Shown piece by piece: positions 1-42,711 of a stretch of DNA of 46,681 bases. The stretch lies in contig QHVJ01000079.1 in the NCBI GenBank assembly GCA_003222275.1, positions 1-46,681 on the forward strand, given 5' to 3'. The notes below the pieces were generated by a model. It saw only the letters and a list, made by a program, of their open reading frames with translations, ran no database searches and had not been told where the DNA came from. Positions within the stretch are counted from its first letter, which is position 1, and the number at the start of each line of letters is the position of its first letter. Origin of the DNA: Acidobacteriota bacterium. Lineage in GTDB: Bacteria; Acidobacteriota; Vicinamibacteria; Fen-336. The position numbers and the translations under genes were made by a program.

Positions 1-390
1 TCCGGCATGACCGGTCATACCGAGGCCGTCCGCGTCGTCTTCGACCCGCGCAAGGTCCGCTACGAGGACCTGCTGCGCGTGTTCTGGGAGAGCCACGACC
101 CCACGCAGGGGATGCGCCAGGGCAACGACGTCGGCACGCAGTATCGCTCGGCCATCTACTGGCGGGACGAGGAACAGCGGCGGGCCGCCGAGGCGTCGCG
201 CGACGCCTATCAGCGCGCCCTGCGCGCCGCCGGCCGCGGGGAGATCACGACCGAGATCGCATCCGCGCCGGAGTTCTACTACGCCGAGGAGTACCACCAA
301 CAGTACCTGGACAAGAATCCCGGCGGCTACTGTGGACTGGGCGGCACCGGCGTGTCATGCCCGGTCGGTGTGACTACGGCTGAACCTTGA
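1..390 (+). CDS. msrA: Peptide-methionine (S)-S-oxide reductase MsrA, 5'-truncated by window edge
   Basis: The reading frame is open from base 1, so the start and the N-terminal catalytic GCFW motif lie outside the window; about 129 C-terminal residues are present. The visible part carries MsrA signatures: the TGHTEAV stretch, [25 protein letters not shown], the [17 protein letters not shown] block and a C-terminal [13 protein letters not shown] containing the presumed recycling cysteines. The enzyme reduces methionine-S-sulfoxide in free or protein-bound form, using thioredoxin-type reductant. No signal peptide can be judged. The gene ends 179 bp before the convergent gene at 569, and that gap is filled by structured repeats. 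Confidence 0.95.
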
Positions 391-393
391 TTG

Positions 394-529
394 AGCAAGG
401 GGCGCTGCGGCGCGCCCCCTTGACGACCGAGCGTAAGCGAGGTCGCGCTGGCGAGGCTCCACTCAGTGGAGGCTCGCAGCAACCCCCGCTCGCTCCGCGG
501 GAGTGAATCCCGCTTCGCTCGCAGCTTTG
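394..529. repeat. Hairpin-rich composite intergenic repeat, copy A
   Basis: Between two convergent genes. It contains a stem-loop at 396-422 (CAAGGGGCGC against GCGCCCCCTTG, one bulge), a near-perfect inverted repeat at 451-477 (GCGAGGCTCCACT, 1-nt loop, one mismatch) and, near 490-525, the reverse complement of the GCGGGATTCACTCCCGC hairpin followed by AGCGAGCGGGG. The outer modules recur in the tandem repeat at 38666-38814 in the opposite orientation; the 451-477 hairpin part is extra in this copy. It is non-coding. It might act as a bidirectional terminator of msrA and the 569 gene, or it might be a non-autonomous REP- or MITE-like element; I cannot tell which. Confidence 0.75.
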
Positions 530-531
530 GC

Positions 532-566
532 TGACTGCTGATTGCTGACCGCTGATCGCCGACTGC
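532..566. repeat. Five-unit 7-bp array (TGAYYGC), GCARTCA in sense of the 569 gene
   Basis: Five consecutive heptamers on the plus strand: TGACTGC, TGATTGC, TGACCGC, TGATCGC, CGACTGC. On the minus strand this reads as GCARTCA-type units beginning 2 nt after the stop codon of the gene at 569-901. The same heptamer forms the arrays at 30524-30589 and 30616-30643. Because the unit is 7 nt, the first four units put TGA in all three plus-strand frames. Confidence 0.8.
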
Positions 567-568
567 TT

Positions 569-901
569 CTAGGCGGTCACTGCTCGCAGCTTGCGATTCA
601 GGCTGTGCATCTGCCGGCGAACCGACTTGAGCTGCGCGTGGTCGTGGGCCTCGAGCGCCTTGTCGCGTGCGGACTTCAGCTCGCGGAGCTTCGCCTTCAG
701 CCCGGCCTTGTCGGCCCCCGGCTTCCCGGCGTGCGGGTGATGGATATGGGCGTCGATGCCGAGGGCCTTGCAGATGGCCGGGAGCAGGTGCTCCTTGTTC
801 ATCTGCGTGTAGCCCTTCACCGCCTCGTTGTCGATCCCCTTGGCGATCTCCCGCAGCTCGTCGACCGTCTTCTTCTTCAGCTCTTCGTAGGTCTGGGCCA
901 T
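569..901 (-). CDS. Small Rho-N/SAP-like basic helical protein, function unknown
   Basis: A 110-residue protein. Residues about 3-50 (TYEELKKKTVDELREIAKGI .. YTQMNKEHLLPAICKALGI) resemble the Rho termination factor N-terminal / SAP-like fold, a small three-helix module used for nucleic-acid binding. A histidine patch (HIHHPH, about 53-58) follows, then a basic helical C-terminus (KAKLRELKSARDKALEAHDHAQ, RRQMHSLNRKLR) that could form a coiled coil. There is no signal peptide and no membrane segment, so it should be cytoplasmic. A GGAGGAG ribosome binding site lies just upstream of the ATG at 901. Nucleic-acid binding is inferred from the Rho-N resemblance only; no enzymatic role is visible. Confidence 0.7.
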   Translation of the reverse strand: MAQTYEELKKKTVDELREIAKGIDNEAVKGYTQMNKEHLLPAICKALGIDAHIHHPHAGKPGADKAGLKAKLRELKSARDKALEAHDHAQLKSVRRQMHSLNRKLRAVTA

Positions 902-22685: not shown

Positions 22686-23984
22686 CTACCGGAGCGAGCG
22701 TAGATTCAGGATCTGCGAGAGGAGCGTCGTCAGGATCTGGTACTTGCCATTAAAGCTCTGGCCGTACTGGGAACGGCTGTAGTAGCCGTCCTCGTAACCA
22801 CGCTGGAATCCCTGCCGGAAATAGTAGTTGTACTGCGGCTGGTCCACGTACATCCCCGTGTAACCGTAGTTCGCGTCGCGGTAAGCCCAATTGTTCCGAT
22901 AGTCGAACCGCCAACCGTCCTGCCGGTCCGCCTGTCCGGCCTGGTAGCCCTCCTCGTAGCCGTTGTTCACCGCCTGCTGAAGCAGATCGGCGCCGTATTG
23001 GCTCGTGTCGTAGTAGCTCCCGCCGTAGGAATAGCGGTAAGCCGGGGCCGTGTAGAAGTACGGATCGCTGCTGTAGTTGTACGACTGCCAGTTCTGGGCG
23101 TTCAGCCGCTGCTGGCGGAGCCGGTCGTAGTACTGCTGCTGGAAACGGTACCGCGCCATCTGGCGCTGCTGCTGGTACATCTGCGCCTGCTGCTCGGCCA
23201 GGCGCTCCTGCTGCGCGAGGCGCTCACTGTACCGCTGGGAGCGCAGCCGCTGCTGGTCGATGAGCTGCTGCTGGCGCGCCTCGGAGAGCCGCTGCACGTT
23301 CTGCCGCTGGATCGCTTGATCCCGCTGCGCCTGCTGTGCCTGCTGCTGTTGGATCTGCTGCTGTCGCTGCTGCTCCTGCGCGCGTTGGGCCTGCTGCGTC
23401 TGCTGCGTCTGTTGTTGCTGGATCTGCTGCTGCCGCTGCTCTCTCATCTGTTGCTGCGCCCGCTGCTGCTCCTGCGCGCGCTGGGCCTGCTGGGCCTGCT
23501 GTTGCTGCCGCTCCTGCTGAAGCTGCTGCTGGCGCGCCGCTTGATTCTGCTCTTGCTGCGTACGTTGCTGCTGCCGCGCCTGCTGCTCCTGCTGAAGGCG
23601 CTGCTGACGCTGCTGCTCGAGCTGGGCGCGCTCCTGTTGCCTGGCCTGCTGGTCTTTCTGCGCCTGTTGTTGACGCTGCTGGGCCTGTTGCGCCTGCTGT
23701 TGCTGCCGGCCCTGCTGGTTCTGCTCCTGCTGCGCCCGCTGCTGCTGCCTCTGCTCCTGCTGCGCCTGCTGCCGGTCCTGTTGCTGCTTCTGCTGCTGTT
23801 GGCGCTGCTGCTGCTTCTCTTGCTGCTGTTGATCGCGCTGTTTCTGTTGCTCCTGCTGCTTCTGCTTCTTCTGATCCTGCTGGTCCTGCGCATCTTGCGC
23901 ACGCACCAGCCCGCTGGTCCCGGCGAGCGACATCGCACCGACGACCGATGCCAGCACCGTGCGGTTGACTATTCGAAGCCTCAT
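22686..23984 (-). CDS. Secreted glutamine-rich, Tyr-ended low-complexity protein
   Basis: 432 residues; ATG 23984 has a GAGGAGG ribosome binding site. Signal peptide MRLRIVNRTVLASVVGAMSL..AGLVRA-like (1-29). Residues about 30-300 are almost wholly Gln with Arg, Lys, Ala and Glu (runs such as QQRQQQQKQQQDRQQAQQEQ), which would form a long charged coiled coil or a prion-like disordered segment. The C-terminal 130 residues are Tyr/Gly/Asn rich and more ordered in appearance: YGADLLQQAVNNGYEEGYQA, RQDGWRFDYRNNWAYRD, YYFRQGFQRGYEDGYYSR, with two GYEEGYQAG/GYEDGYYSR-like repeats. No enzyme motif. It is probably a periplasmic or surface structural protein; function unknown. The leucine-rich frame on the other strand is a shadow. 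Confidence 0.8.
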   Translation of the reverse strand: MRLRIVNRTVLASVVGAMSLAGTSGLVRAQDAQDQQDQKKQKQQEQQKQRDQQQQEKQQQRQQQQKQQQDRQQAQQEQRQQQRAQQEQNQQGRQQQQAQQAQQRQQQAQKDQQARQQERAQLEQQRQQRLQQEQQARQQQRTQQEQNQAARQQQLQQERQQQQAQQAQRAQEQQRAQQQMREQRQQQIQQQQTQQTQQAQRAQEQQRQQQIQQQQAQQAQRDQAIQRQNVQRLSEARQQQLIDQQRLRSQRYSERLAQQERLAEQQAQMYQQQRQMARYRFQQQYYDRLRQQRLNAQNWQSYNYSSDPYFYTAPAYRYSYGGSYYDTSQYGADLLQQAVNNGYEEGYQAGQADRQDGWRFDYRNNWAYRDANYGYTGMYVDQPQYNYYFRQGFQRGYEDGYYSRSQYGQSFNGKYQILTTLLSQILNLRSLR

Positions 23985-29600: not shown

Positions 29601-30522
29601 CTTCCTCGCGTGTTGGCAGCACGCCGACGGTGAGCATCGGCTCGAAGGCCCGCGCGGCGTGGCCGCGGTCGTCTCGCAGCTCGCCGGGTTCGAGGTGCCC
29701 GCGGCGGCGTGGGAGGCGAGCGTGCTGCCCGCCCGGGTCCGCGCCTACAAACGCGAGTGGCTCGACCAGATCACCTTGTCGGGCGAGGTGATGTGGGGAC
29801 GGCTGTGGGGAGCGGGCGCGACGCCGGTGCGGCGGACGCCGGTCTGCCTCTTCCCCCGGGAAGAAGCCGCGAGCTGGTCCGCTCTGTCCGTGGCCGCGGG
29901 CCCCGCGTCGGAGCCCACCGGCACGGCGGCCGAGGTGCACGCCGCTCTCGCGCGCCGCGGCCCGATGTTCCTCCAGGAGCTGGCGAAAGAGAGCCGGCTT
30001 CCGGCGGCCTCCGTCGAAGAGGGCCTGGGCGCGCTCGTCGCCCTGGGCCACGTCACCTGCGACAGCTTCGGCGGCCTGAGGCTGCTCGTCGTACCGGCCT
30101 GGAGGCGCAAGTCGGCGGGCGTGACGGCGGGCCGCTGGAGCCTGCTCGAACGAGCCGCGGGCGCCGCGCCGTCGGCCGAAGCGCTGGCGCGTCAGATGCT
30201 GAGGCGGACGGGCGTCGTCTTCCGCAAGACGCTGGAAAGGGAGAAGCACGGGATGACTTGGCGGGAGATCGCCCGCGCTGGCCGGGTCCTGGAGGCGCGC
30301 GGCGAGATCCGTGGCGGCCGCTTCGTGGCCGGCTTCGACGGCGAGCAGTACGCGCTGCCGGAGGCGGTGACGCTGCTGCGGTCGGTCCGTCGCCGGGCGG
30401 AATGGCCGGCCGGTCCGCCGCCGGTCACGGTGAGCGCGGCCGACCCGCTCAACTTCCGCGGCATCCTGACGCCGGAGGAGAAGGTCTCGCCGCTGACGCG
30501 CCAGCAAGTAATGGTTGGATAG
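26602..30522 (+). CDS. lhr: Lhr-family ATP-dependent helicase
   Basis: 1306 residues. ATG 26602 follows an AAGGA ribosome binding site; open frame upstream is a shadow of the hexosaminidase gene. Helicase motifs: Q motif PTPPQRDGWP, Walker A APTGSGKT (43-50), PLRALSNDV, TTPESL, Walker B DEIH (162-165), SAT (197-199), FVNTRKMAERIA, LELGIDIGEVDLVVQVGA, motif VI QRVGRSGH (350-357). The Lhr-specific winged-helix and beta-barrel core follows (RVGLSATQKP, GTVNEDWAIEASGGDIFQLG, FFDESGGMQLVVHAPFGSRINRAWG), then a C-terminal extension of roughly 450 residues (DUF-type DNA-binding modules). E. coli Lhr is 1538 residues. Lhr unwinds RNA:DNA hybrids and DNA with 3' loading and is linked to DNA repair. 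Confidence 0.93.
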   Translation: MSSLAAFHPSVRNWFGARLGEPTPPQRDGWPLIRDGRHTLIAAPTGSGKTLAAFLSAIDSLLRQGPVLPDATQVLYVSPLRALSNDVQKNLQGPLAEIRTADPSLPELRVLVRTGDTPAGERTAMARRPPHILVTTPESLYILLTSAGGRGMLQSVRTVIVDEIHALVRDKRGSHLALSLERLEALAGRSIQRVGLSATQKPLDEVGRFLVGTGRECALVDAGTFRDLDLAVEVPPSALSTVCSHEQWEEIYNRIATLVREHRTTLVFVNTRKMAERIAAQLTKLLGEDAVTSHHGSLARERRLEAEQRLKAGQLRALVATASLELGIDIGEVDLVVQVGATRSIATLLQRVGRSGHALGRTPKGRIFPLTVDELVEAAALLRCVRRGLLDRTPAPPRPLDILAQQVVASCVPEAWEEQALFDTMRRAWPYRDLVREEFDACVGLHAEGRRALLHRDGVNRRVMATRRARLTALMSGGAIPDTADYQVRLEPDGTLVGTVNEDWAIEASGGDIFQLGNMSWQILRVEPGVVRVADAKGAPPSLPFWLGEGPGRTRELAAEIATLREGCADQAAGREEWLRSECGDALPEGASSQIAEFVEAGRQALGAVPTQNLVILERFFDESGGMQLVVHAPFGSRINRAWGLALRKRFCVGFGFELQAAANEEAIVLSLGPQHSFELDGVFDYLQPETARDVLVQALLASPMFETRWRWNAQRSLLLDRSRNGKRVPAYLLRMRANDLLAAAFPQVLACPETLPGGPIEVPMEHPVVRQTIEDCLTEAMDVDGFLDVLRGLRDGRIAKRAVDTPEPSAFARGILNSAPYTFLDDAPLEERRTQAVASRRILDIRTADELGALDPEAVARVREEAWPQPESAEEVHEALLWMGFVTAEEAAPWKPWIEELRAGGRIVVEADRYVAAEATRDPKAVLRGRMEALGPVFLTDPDETALMLQLEAEGSVLRARIDGRQAWCDRRLLARIHRYTLDRLRKEIEPVTASQFLRFLACWQHADGEHRLEGPRGVAAVVSQLAGFEVPAAAWEASVLPARVRAYKREWLDQITLSGEVMWGRLWGAGATPVRRTPVCLFPREEAASWSALSVAAGPASEPTGTAAEVHAALARRGPMFLQELAKESRLPAASVEEGLGALVALGHVTCDSFGGLRLLVVPAWRRKSAGVTAGRWSLLERAAGAAPSAEALARQMLRRTGVVFRKTLEREKHGMTWREIARAGRVLEARGEIRGGRFVAGFDGEQYALPEAVTLLRSVRRRAEWPAGPPPVTVSAADPLNFRGILTPEEKVSPLTRQQVMVG

Positions 30523-30523
30523 G

Positions 30524-30589
30524 CAGCAATCAGCAATCAGCAATCAGCAATCAGCAATCAGCAATCAGCAATCAGCAATCAGCAATCAG
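30524..30589. repeat. Nine perfect copies of a 7-bp unit (CAGCAAT / GCAATCA)
   Basis: Nine identical heptamers at 30524-30586 plus three bases of a tenth, starting one base after the lhr stop codon. Unlike the arrays at 532 and 30616, all units here are identical, which suggests recent expansion by slippage. On the complementary strand the unit reads TGATTGC, so TGA occurs in all three frames. Confidence 0.95.
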
Positions 30590-30615
30590 TGTTGCGAGCG
30601 TAACGCCGGCAATCC

Positions 30616-30643
30616 TGAATGCTGACTGCTGAATGCTGATTGC
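30616..30643. repeat. Four-unit degenerate 7-bp array, inverted relative to 30524-30589
   Basis: TGAATGC, TGACTGC, TGAATGC, TGATTGC on the plus strand. On the minus strand it reads GCAATCA, GCATTCA, GCAGTCA, GCATTCA, beginning 1 nt after the stop of the gene ending at 30645. It is an inverted copy of the array next to lhr, so the two could pair into a long imperfect hairpin. Confidence 0.85.
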
Positions 30644-30644
30644 T

Positions 30645-38617: not shown

Positions 38618-38646
38618 CGCCGAGGCCGCAGAGGACCGCAGAGGCA
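38618..38646. repeat. GC-rich GCAGAGG-type direct repeat
   Basis: CCGAGGCCGCAGAGGACCGC followed by AGAGGCAAC: two close copies of CCGCAGAGG with a third degenerate one before. Similar cgcagaggac-type intergenic strings are known from several bacterial phyla; no function is assigned. It directly precedes the hairpin repeat copy B. Confidence 0.5.
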
Positions 38647-38652
38647 ACAAGC

Positions 38653-38814
38653 AAAAGCTGCGAGCGGAGCGGGATTCACTCCCGCGTAGCGAGCGGGGGG
38701 TTCAGGGGGGCGCGCCGCTAGCGCCCTCCTGCTCAATGACGGAGCGGGATTCACTCCCGCGAAGCGAGCGGGGGGTTCAGGGGGGCGCGCCGCTAGCGCC
38801 CCCCTGCTAATGCC
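38653..38814. repeat. Hairpin repeat, copies B1 and B2 in tandem (75-bp period)
   Basis: Copy B1 spans 38666-38740 and B2 38741-38814. They differ at a few bases (CGTAGC against CGAAGC; CCCTCCT against CCCCCCT; ends). Each has hairpin GCGGGA-ttcac-TCCCGC (38669-38685 in B1) followed by AGCGAGCGGGGGGTTCAGG and a second stem-loop GGGCGC/GCGCCC. The first 13 bases before B1 (GCTGCGAGCGG) extend the match to copy A at 394-529, which lies in reverse orientation. Non-coding; possibly a REP-like element able to spread as a unit. Confidence 0.85.
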
Positions 38815-39879: not shown

Positions 39880-42711
39880 CTATTCGCCCTCGGACGCGAC
39901 GGGCTCACCAGGGTCGTCCTCCTCGGCGGACGGCAGGAATGCGCGGAACTCGTCGACGGTCGCATGCGGTCGGCGTGCCGGTTCGTCCAGGGCGGCGAGA
40001 TCGTCGCTGGGCTCGGGCAGGTTCAGCGCCCGATGGAGGGCCGATTTCGAGATCGCCCACAACTCGTTGCCGTTCATGTGGTCGTTGGCCGTGAAGAAGA
40101 CGAGAGGCCCGACCGGCGTGAAGAAGCGCGGCGAGGACCAGCCCGCTCCCACGGCGAGGTCCTGCACCACCCGCGTGGTGTTCGTGCCGTTGGTCGCCCA
40201 CAGCTCGAGGCCGTGGGCGTCGTCATACGCGCTGAACAGCGCCAGGCCGCCCACCTTCCTGAAGGAGGAGCTGTCGAAGATCGGCCCCAACGAGCTGGCC
40301 GGTCCCGGATTGATGTCCAAGAGGAGGTCCGCCGTGACGCCGTCGCTCCTCCACAGCTCGCACCCGTTCCCATCCCTCGCCGCGAACACCAGGGCGTCGC
40401 TGACCTGAGCGGAGGCACCGCCACATCCTAACCACCGGTTGTCGGGGAGAATGGAATCCCGGATCAGGGCCGTGCCCGCGTCCGTCCCATCGGTCTTCCA
40501 CAGCCCGCTCGCGACGCTGAAGAAGAGGACACCGTTGGTGCCGAGCGGAGTCAAGACGGCGAACGGCAACTCCGGTGAGAAATCCTTCACGAGCACGGTA
40601 CCTGCCTCCGTTCCATCGCTCTTCCACAGCGTGTCGCCGGTCCAACCCCCGCCGTTCTCTGCGCCGAAGGCGGTGAAGAGGAGGGTGCCGTTGAGGTCGA
40701 CCAGGCGCGTCGGGCCCGAGCTTGCCGGCCCCGGCCGGATATCCTTGACCAGGACCGTGCCGGCTGCGGTCCCGTCGCTCTTCCACAGCTCGCTGCCGGT
40801 GTCCGGGTGGAAGGCACTGAAGAAGAGGGTGCCGTTGATATTCAGGAGCCGGGCCACGCCGGCCGAGCCGGCCCCCGGGACGATGTCCTTGACCAGGACG
40901 GTGCCGGCCGCCGTTCCGTCGCTCTTCCACAGCTCGCTGCCGGTGTCCGGGCGGAAGGCACTGAAGAAGAGGGTGCCGTCGACGTCGGTGAGCTGTTTGA
41001 GGTCGGACGAGCCCGGTCCCGGATAGACGTCCTTGACGAGCAGGGTCCCCGCCTCGGTCCCGTCGCTCCTCCACAGCTCCGTGCCGGTGTCGGGGCGGAA
41101 GGCGGCGAAGAACAGGATACTCCCCACCCGGGTGAGCGAGTCCGGGGAAGACGAGCCGGCCCCCGGGACGATGTCCTTGACGAGGGCGGTCCCCTCGGCG
41201 CTCCCGTCGCTCTTCCATAGCTCGCGGCCGGCCCCGGGGGTGGAGGCGGTGAAGAACAAGCTCTTCTGAAGCTTGAGCAGGTCGTCCGGGAACGACGAAC
41301 CCGCGCCGGGATTGATGTCCCTCAAGAGCACCGTGCCGGCTTCGGCGCCGTCGCTCGTCCACGGCTCGGGCCCGGTGCTCGGCAGTGACGCCGAGAAGAA
41401 GAGCTTGCCGAGGCCGCTGGCGAGAGTCGTGAGGCTGGAGTCGCCGGGACCGGTGTTGATGTCCTTCACGATCACGGTTCCGAACTCGGTCCCATCGCTC
41501 TTCCACAGCTCGGTACCCGCGCCGGAGCCGAAGGCCTTGAAGAAGAGTGTGCGGCCGACGGCGGTAAGCGCGGCGGGCGAGGAAGAGCCGTCCCCGGCGA
41601 CGAGGTCCTTGACGAGCGCGGTCCCCTCGGCCGTCCCGTCGCTCCGCCACAGTTCCACTCCCGTGCCGGCCCGGAAGGCCGAGAAGAAGAGCGTACCGTC
41701 GACGGTGGCGAGGTTGCCGGGAGTGGAGGAGCCGGCCCCGGGCTCGATGTCCTTGACGAGCACGGTGCCCTCCTCGGTCCCGTCGCTCTTCCACAGCTCG
41801 TAGCCGGTCTCCGGGCGGAAGGCCGTAAAGAAGAGCGCGCCATTGGCGCCCTTCAGGTTGGAGGGGCCGGAAGAAGCGGCCCCGGCGCTGACGTCCTTGA
41901 CCAGCACGGTCCCCTCGGCCGTCCCGTCGCTTTTCCACAGCTCCGTCCCGACATCGGGGCGGAAGGCCCCGAAGAAGAGAGTGCCGTTGACGGTGGTGAG
42001 GTTGAAAGGACTGGAAGAGCCGGGCCCGGGGTTGATGTCCTTGATCATGCTCGTGCCCGACGCGTCGCTCTTCCACAGCTCGCTGCCGGTGCCGGGGCTG
42101 AAGACCGTGAAGAAAAGCGTGCTGCCGACCACGGTGAGATTCGACGGGGCCCAATGGGACGTGTCCGCGACGGGCCCCGTTCCTGTCCCGTCGCTTCTCC
42201 AGAGCGAATAGGTACTGTCGAGATTCCTCACGAAGTACAGAGTGCCGCCCACGGCGGTGAACTGTCCAAGACCTCTGTACTGGGGCGCCTCCGGGCCGAT
42301 GTCGTCCCTGACCAGCACGGTCCCTTCGGCCGTCCCGTCGCTCCGCCAGAGCTTGTCGCCCATCCTGGTCGAGAAAGGGGAAAAGTCGGAGTGGAAGAAG
42401 AGGATACCGTTGACGTTGGTGAGGTCGCGGACGCCGATGGCCTTGACCATTACGGTGCCGGCGGGGCTCCCGTCGGTCCGCCACAGGCCGGAATTGGCCC
42501 CGTCGGTCGCGCTGAAGAAGACGAACCCGCCGGCTTCCACGAATGGCCCCGGCAACGAGCCGGCGGCGGCGTCGAACGTGTTATTGATGTCCTTGACGAG
42601 GAAAGCCCGCGTATCTGGCGTTCCCTTCTGGCCCGCACCGACCCAAGCCGTCGCGACGAGCCCCAAGACGAGGGCGGCAAGAACAGTCCAAACCCAGGAA
42701 GAGGCCCGCAT
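39880..42711 (-). CDS. Secreted repeat protein with about 17 ELWxxDGT repeats
   Basis: 943 residues. The ribosome binding site AAAGGAG lies in front of ATG 42711, which starts a signal peptide (MRASSWVWTVLAALVLGLVA). The rest is a 48-residue repeat with consensus ELWKSDGTxxGTVLVKDIxP, GxGSSxPxxLTxVNGTLFFS and AFxPxTG; I count 17 recognisable copies plus a degenerate last one. Such repeats (ELWxxDGT) are predicted to form beta-propellers; two or three propellers would fit this length. Some neighbouring copies are almost identical in DNA (40740-40840 and 40880-40980), so the array has been re-copied recently. The C-terminal 60 residues are acidic and unordered. Ligand unknown; location probably periplasmic or cell surface. 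Confidence 0.87.
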   Translation of the reverse strand: MRASSWVWTVLAALVLGLVATAWVGAGQKGTPDTRAFLVKDINNTFDAAAGSLPGPFVEAGGFVFFSATDGANSGLWRTDGSPAGTVMVKAIGVRDLTNVNGILFFHSDFSPFSTRMGDKLWRSDGTAEGTVLVRDDIGPEAPQYRGLGQFTAVGGTLYFVRNLDSTYSLWRSDGTGTGPVADTSHWAPSNLTVVGSTLFFTVFSPGTGSELWKSDASGTSMIKDINPGPGSSSPFNLTTVNGTLFFGAFRPDVGTELWKSDGTAEGTVLVKDVSAGAASSGPSNLKGANGALFFTAFRPETGYELWKSDGTEEGTVLVKDIEPGAGSSTPGNLATVDGTLFFSAFRAGTGVELWRSDGTAEGTALVKDLVAGDGSSSPAALTAVGRTLFFKAFGSGAGTELWKSDGTEFGTVIVKDINTGPGDSSLTTLASGLGKLFFSASLPSTGPEPWTSDGAEAGTVLLRDINPGAGSSFPDDLLKLQKSLFFTASTPGAGRELWKSDGSAEGTALVKDIVPGAGSSSPDSLTRVGSILFFAAFRPDTGTELWRSDGTEAGTLLVKDVYPGPGSSDLKQLTDVDGTLFFSAFRPDTGSELWKSDGTAAGTVLVKDIVPGAGSAGVARLLNINGTLFFSAFHPDTGSELWKSDGTAAGTVLVKDIRPGPASSGPTRLVDLNGTLLFTAFGAENGGGWTGDTLWKSDGTEAGTVLVKDFSPELPFAVLTPLGTNGVLFFSVASGLWKTDGTDAGTALIRDSILPDNRWLGCGGASAQVSDALVFAARDGNGCELWRSDGVTADLLLDINPGPASSLGPIFDSSSFRKVGGLALFSAYDDAHGLELWATNGTNTTRVVQDLAVGAGWSSPRFFTPVGPLVFFTANDHMNGNELWAISKSALHRALNLPEPSDDLAALDEPARRPHATVDEFRAFLPSAEEDDPGEPVASEGE

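Follow-up and report, generated by a model that had tools for sequence, protein, structure and literature searches.

Our analyses place the hairpin repeat at positions 394–529 of the window (the whole stretch of DNA analysed, 46,681 nt of contig QHVJ01000079.1) within a dispersed family of double-hairpin repeats, which we consider, with good confidence, to be non-autonomous mobile elements of a REP/RPE-like but un-tagged kind. We demonstrate dispersal of the copies, compensatory changes in their stems, filled and empty sites in congeneric genomes and tolerance of in-frame copies within protein genes. The word 'mobile' is used here in a qualified sense, on the strength of presence or absence between two species whose flanks are about 80–90% identical, and for single sites deletion from the second of them (G002, below) may be the alternative to gain. 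The two genomes are both MAGs: that of the window itself, an uncultured soil acidobacterium (G000; 6.76 Mb, fragmented into 628 contigs, 94% complete), and one of the same genus (G002; 97% complete). Copies were read in regions fetched around matches, so that counts in fetched sequence describe a sample enriched in copies.

Architecture of the unit and its copies in the window

The unit, about 75–85 bp long, joins two unlike hairpins, a 17-bp core hairpin (HP1) and a second, GC-rich hairpin (HP2), in the consensus AGCTGCGAGCGGA-GCGGGATTCACTCCCGC-GNAGCGAGCGGGGGG-TCTGGGGGGTGCGCCGCTAGCACCCCCCA-GCTCAATGA, where GCGGGATTCACTCCCGC is HP1 and reads GCGGGA-TTCAC-TCCCGC. The copies in the window, with the features that adjoin copy A, are as follows.

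7–390, plus strand: msrA-like gene (PMSR; PF01625, 4.4e-42), open at the window edge, upstream of copy A
394–529, minus strand: copy A, the complete element, made up of HP1, a pair of extra hairpins and HP2; E-values by nhmmer 8.7e-12 and 8e-11
397–421, minus strand: HP2 of copy A, AAGGGGGCGCGCCGCAGCGCCCCTT, GC-rich
425–444, minus strand: extra hairpin 2 (copy A; GACC...GGTC), one occurrence in fetched sequence
453–475, minus strand: extra hairpin 1 (copy A), with no second exact copy in the genome
492–518, minus strand: HP1 of copy A with its GCGNAGC flanks (GCGAAGC at 512–518, GCGGAGC at 492–498)
497–513, minus strand: HP1 of copy A, GCGGGA-TTCAC-TCCCGC
530–566, plus strand: imperfect heptamer array, GCTGAYT-like, adjoining the HP1 side of copy A
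572–901, minus strand: Rho_N-domain gene (PF07498, 7.6e-6), convergent to msrA
38656–38739, plus strand: copy B1 (HP1 38669–38685, HP2 38703–38731); E 1.1e-28
38740–38812, plus strand: copy B2, in tandem with B1, period 75 (HP1 38744–38760, HP2 38778–38806); E 7.1e-21

Copy A sits in the gap between the convergent msrA and Rho_N-type genes and runs, on the minus strand, from HP1 through AGCGAGCGGGGG and the two extra hairpins to HP2; the B1/B2 pair lies between codirectional genes, downstream of an MFS transporter gene, and inverted-repeat arms at 483–532 and 38650–38699 match at 94%. That copy A shares HP1 GCGGGATTCACTCCCGC, AGCGAGCGGGGG and HP2 AAGGGGGCGCGCCGCAGCGCCCCTT with the tandem pair at 38,656–38,812, as a preliminary description of this DNA had it, is confirmed, and the order is the same. 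The extra hairpin module that it placed between HP1 and HP2 of copy A is also present, but as two hairpins (453–475 and 425–444) rather than one. Extra hairpin 1 has a single exact match in the genome, and its 3-mismatch matches elsewhere have other cores; it belongs to copy A alone, so that the 'modules' do not recur independently of one another. HP1 and HP2, for their part, travel together in the sequence fetched around copies, 65 of the 68 HP2 motifs in fetched G000 sequence having an ATTCA loop at most 60 bp away, and the suggestion of assembly from smaller independent pieces is therefore not supported. The heptamer array said to be fused to copy A does abut it, but a general link between the two is not supported: the G000 sequence fetched, 0.97 Mb in all, has five such arrays, of which one is near a copy, and none occurs in fetched G002 sequence. 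The adjacency looks incidental. A longer AATCAGC/GCTGATT heptamer array was observed at 30510–30644 of the window, which also holds at least nine tandem repeats of 144 nt (48 codons) at 40314–42611 and a long CTG/CAG-rich low-complexity stretch at 23153–23896.

Compensatory changes are evident in both hairpins. Variants of the HP1 stem (GCGGGA, GCGCGA, GCGGAA) remain paired, and HP2 carries paired changes from T-A to A-T, G-C to A-T and T-A to C-G. Over 35 distinct rows, 99.2% of the cells pair, and those changed on both sides number 43 against a shuffled mean of 13.7, with none of 500 shuffles as high; the pairing signal is destroyed when the partners are slid. Among 5-nt loops on stems of at least 6 bp, TTCAC ranks first (86 against 16 for the next, median 2) in fetched sequence, an enrichment relative to that sample. 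GCGNAGC is a very stable DNA mini-hairpin motif, and it is found on both sides of HP1 in most copies, with N variable; we take these flanks as suggestive only. A second arrangement, the permuted HP2-HP1, is gene-embedded and folds as DNA (z = -5.3).

Three further patterns were observed beside these. A second form, AGCAGCGAGCGAGGGATTCACTCCCGAGCGAGCG, occurs in G000 and G002 (e.g. L117:4556, L303:2018, L316:2030) without the usual upstream HP2, has GA/GA mismatches in the stem and often lies apparently just past gene ends. Tandem repeats of 45 nt, made of an HP1 half-unit, lie at L299 (G000:C304) and L310 (G000:C402), and CGCAGAGGCCGCAGAGG-type repeats lie immediately upstream of several intergenic copies (window 38625–38655, L009, L015, L042, L043).

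Copy number, clade distribution and genomic placement

Copies extend well beyond the two sites in the window, so that the refuting condition set in the preliminary description, an absence of further copies, fails. Exact HP1 occurs 63 times in the 6.76 Mb of G000 and 0 times in the reversed control, BLAST with the full unit returns 58 matches, and the family amounts to about 100 copies across G000, chiefly between genes; G002 has 71 exact HP1 copies. The spread is clade-limited. Of the order's 17 genomes, 10 contain the HP1 core, and G000 and G002 (63 and 71) alone are rich in it; in the phylum sample it is found in 3 of the 297 genomes, the window's genome included. In the class sample GGGATTCACTCCC occurs 100 times in G000, 99 times in G002 and sparsely elsewhere (0 in the reversed control), and the named matches are Acidobacteria and Vicinamibacteria MAGs. 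An artefact of assembly or binning might be suspected in a MAG of so many contigs, some HP1 copies lying at contig ends, but the double-hairpin unit is present in several separately deposited MAGs, its stems covary and copies stand at divergent sites within whole genes, so that we regard such an origin as extremely improbable.

Within the sequence fetched around copies, the copies are mainly intergenic and convergent gene ends are over-represented. Genic and intergenic calls were made with a simple codon-model gene caller, applied to HMM clusters: 8 of 161 clusters lie inside genes, against about 80% of random positions, in fetched sequence; the model derives from intergenic copies and counts too few of the gene-embedded ones. 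Of the 145 clusters assigned to an orientation class (convergent, codirectional or divergent), 38 lie in convergent gaps; among gene junctions the figure is 182 of 1411. Such enrichment, together with strong and conserved hairpins, would suit a functional intergenic RNA element, a terminator or mRNA 3'-end stabiliser copied for its usefulness and not as selfish DNA. Against this, many intergenic copies are codirectional or divergent, Rfam gives no match within the window, the presence of the double-hairpin unit within coding frames is hard to square with termination, and copy A is missing from the same site in the genus-mate G002; an RNA element of this kind appears unlikely to us.

Filled and empty sites and in-frame copies

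At locus L198 of G002 the two genes bordering copy A are both retained (84–86% DNA identity), but copy A and the heptamer array are absent. Copy A would be one intergenic copy, either acquired in the lineage of G000 or lost in that of G002. Within genes, UvrC has a clean 69-nt (23-codon) insertion in G000 relative to G002, and the RlmN and agmatine deiminase (AguA) inserts of G000 are absent in G002; the TrpB insert is common to G000 and G002 and is missing from the other genera in which TrpB matches in full.

Gene-embedded copies, which stand outside the window and so beyond the reach of the preliminary description, usually have the permuted HP2-HP1 order and at times the ordinary HP1-HP2 order. 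In G000 they stand in frame in RlmN, UvrC, ArgS, AguA, MazG, TrpB (diverged) and others, as well as in bS16 (close to the C-terminus), a TolB-like/amidohydrolase protein and a TPM-like protein (after the signal peptide); in-frame copies of G002 are in ArgS, DnaE2, an ImuB-like protein and others, and the MAG JACQGI has one in DnaE. DnaE2, ImuB-like, TPM-like and TolB-like are putative names that come from our reading of the sequences. The inserts comprise about 20–45 predicted residues that are missing from homologues, and when RlmN, ArgS, agmatine deiminase, TrpB and DnaE are aligned with solved structures, the alignment is interrupted at the peptide that the repeat encodes. ArgS has an insert at one position in both G000 and G002, with different hairpins, and the ImuB-like proteins of the two genomes have different insert peptides at one site. 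Since an open frame was the search criterion for most of the listed inserts, the label 'in frame' reflects in part how they were selected, and it is the orthologue comparisons that provide independent evidence. We also considered that the gene-embedded form might be unusually stop-free, which was not supported (a mean of 3.6 of 6 frames open, against 4.2 in shuffles). In the ImuB-like open frame at L322 (G002:C97), the stretch upstream looks like a wrong frame, which suggests a frameshift or an assembly error.

Candidate movers and comparison with known repeats

Likeness to REP/BIME or MITE families had been proposed for the repeat, with a RAYT/TnpA-like transposase as the enzyme to look for. 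The first half of that likeness stands in so far as the family is dispersed, palindromic and REP-like. A REP/BIME family of the classical kind, in which a RAYT (TnpA_REP) recognizes the hairpin together with a GTAG foot and moves the repeat, would share palindromic and dispersed copies, their position near gene ends and their tandem clusters, and GNAG does follow HP1: in 64 units the 4 nt on its 3' side read GGAG 31 times, GCAG 15 times, GAAG 11 times and GTAG 7 times. GTAG is thus confined to just 7 of the 64 units, and 12 have the 3' tail GACG, which reads CGTC on the opposite strand, so that in these units neither a GTAG nor a CGTC unpaired foot tag is a constant feature. Moreover, Y1_Tnp (PF01797; Y1/RAYT transposase) gives 0 matches in G000 and G002, the two richest genomes, an absence that is provisional in MAGs, where a missing transposase may be unassembled; and the genomes in which Y1_Tnp was found, G007 and G010, are both without exact HP1. 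Movement by a RAYT therefore seems to us quite unlikely.

The MITE half of the likeness is not supported. The repeat is short, non-coding and dispersed, as one would expect of a DDE insertion sequence shortened by internal deletion, but terminal inverted repeats are not visible in the aligned consensus, no target-site duplication is evident at the G000/G002 filled and empty pairs, with flanks that are about 10–20% diverged, and between neighbouring copies we found no autonomous element, the genes recognized there being ordinary and without a transposase. We hold this derivation to be very unlikely. Reverse transcriptase was rejected as a general mover, with 3 matches in G000 and none in G002, G001, G006 and G008; the reverse transcriptase genes of G000 were located at L336–L338 (G000:C163, C544).

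For the un-tagged, non-autonomous family that we favour, we suggest that copies may spread as folded single-stranded DNA (HP1 with its TTCAC loop, the GCGNAGC flanks and HP2), that the moving enzyme would be supplied in trans, and that selection would spare copies in intergenic gaps, or stop-free in-frame ones in tolerant protein regions. It is conceivable, if speculative and on balance rather unlikely, that an enzyme other than Y1/RAYT moves the unit via a circular or tandem single-stranded intermediate, two opening points of which would yield the form between genes (HP1-HP2) and the form within them (HP2-HP1), with repeated entry into the same protein sites (ArgS, ImuB-like). Genes that are filled in one congener and empty in the other offer a direct test of the mode of DNA movement, and they would also allow the tolerance of UvrC, ArgS and RlmN for at least 20 inserted residues to be tested.

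A literature search that covers few subscription journals found no published description of the present family. Double-hairpin elements of fungal and algal mitochondria have two unlike GC-rich hairpins and have partly spread into coding sequence; likened by description, they are similar to the present family in both respects and differ in being organellar. Like REP/BIME and RAYT-associated REPIN repeats, our copies are short and palindromic, lie near gene ends and form tandem clusters, and they are, as REPs are, highly similar, dispersed and mostly extragenic; unlike them, they have no fixed GTAG tag and no detected Y1 transposase, and are units of about 75–85 bp with two unlike hairpins and a permuted HP2-HP1 form in genes. 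According to the part of PMC3733652 drawn on here, most REPs belong to GTAG- or CGTC-tagged superfamilies, of which the CGTC repeats are without transposase gene association, REPs favour unidirectional and convergent gaps, and Y1-type TIRYT transposases are reported in Acidobacteria. Rickettsia palindromic elements (RPE) are described in the same part as palindromic and in frame in likely functional protein genes, and the present copies resemble them in standing in frame in conserved protein genes and being absent from orthologues; compared by description, the differences are a two-hairpin unit, a GC-rich acidobacterial lineage, extragenic copies that outnumber intragenic ones and no fixed CGTC tag (a GACG tail in 12 of 64 units).

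In-frame palindromic inserts are already known, from Rickettsia and several REP families; to these is added a further, distinct family, from a soil lineage that is uncultured and in which no REP transposase was found. Intragenic REPs, again as far as this part of PMC3733652 extends, commonly encode 20–30 aa and are reported in replication, repair and tRNA synthetase genes, many of them in replication and repair genes, including DnaE of R. conorii. The intragenic GTAG/CGTC repeats of Opitutus terrae and Rickettsia conorii occur in Uvr proteins, DnaE, DnaE2 and tRNA synthetases, as ours do in UvrC, DnaE, DnaE2 and ArgS, but the tags are not conserved here and the hosts named in that part of the source are not acidobacteria. 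Within the same limits of the source, the earlier report of such repeats in replication and repair genes is repeated here, and the double-hairpin family behaves like GTAG/CGTC REPs, yet with neither tag as a fixed feature.
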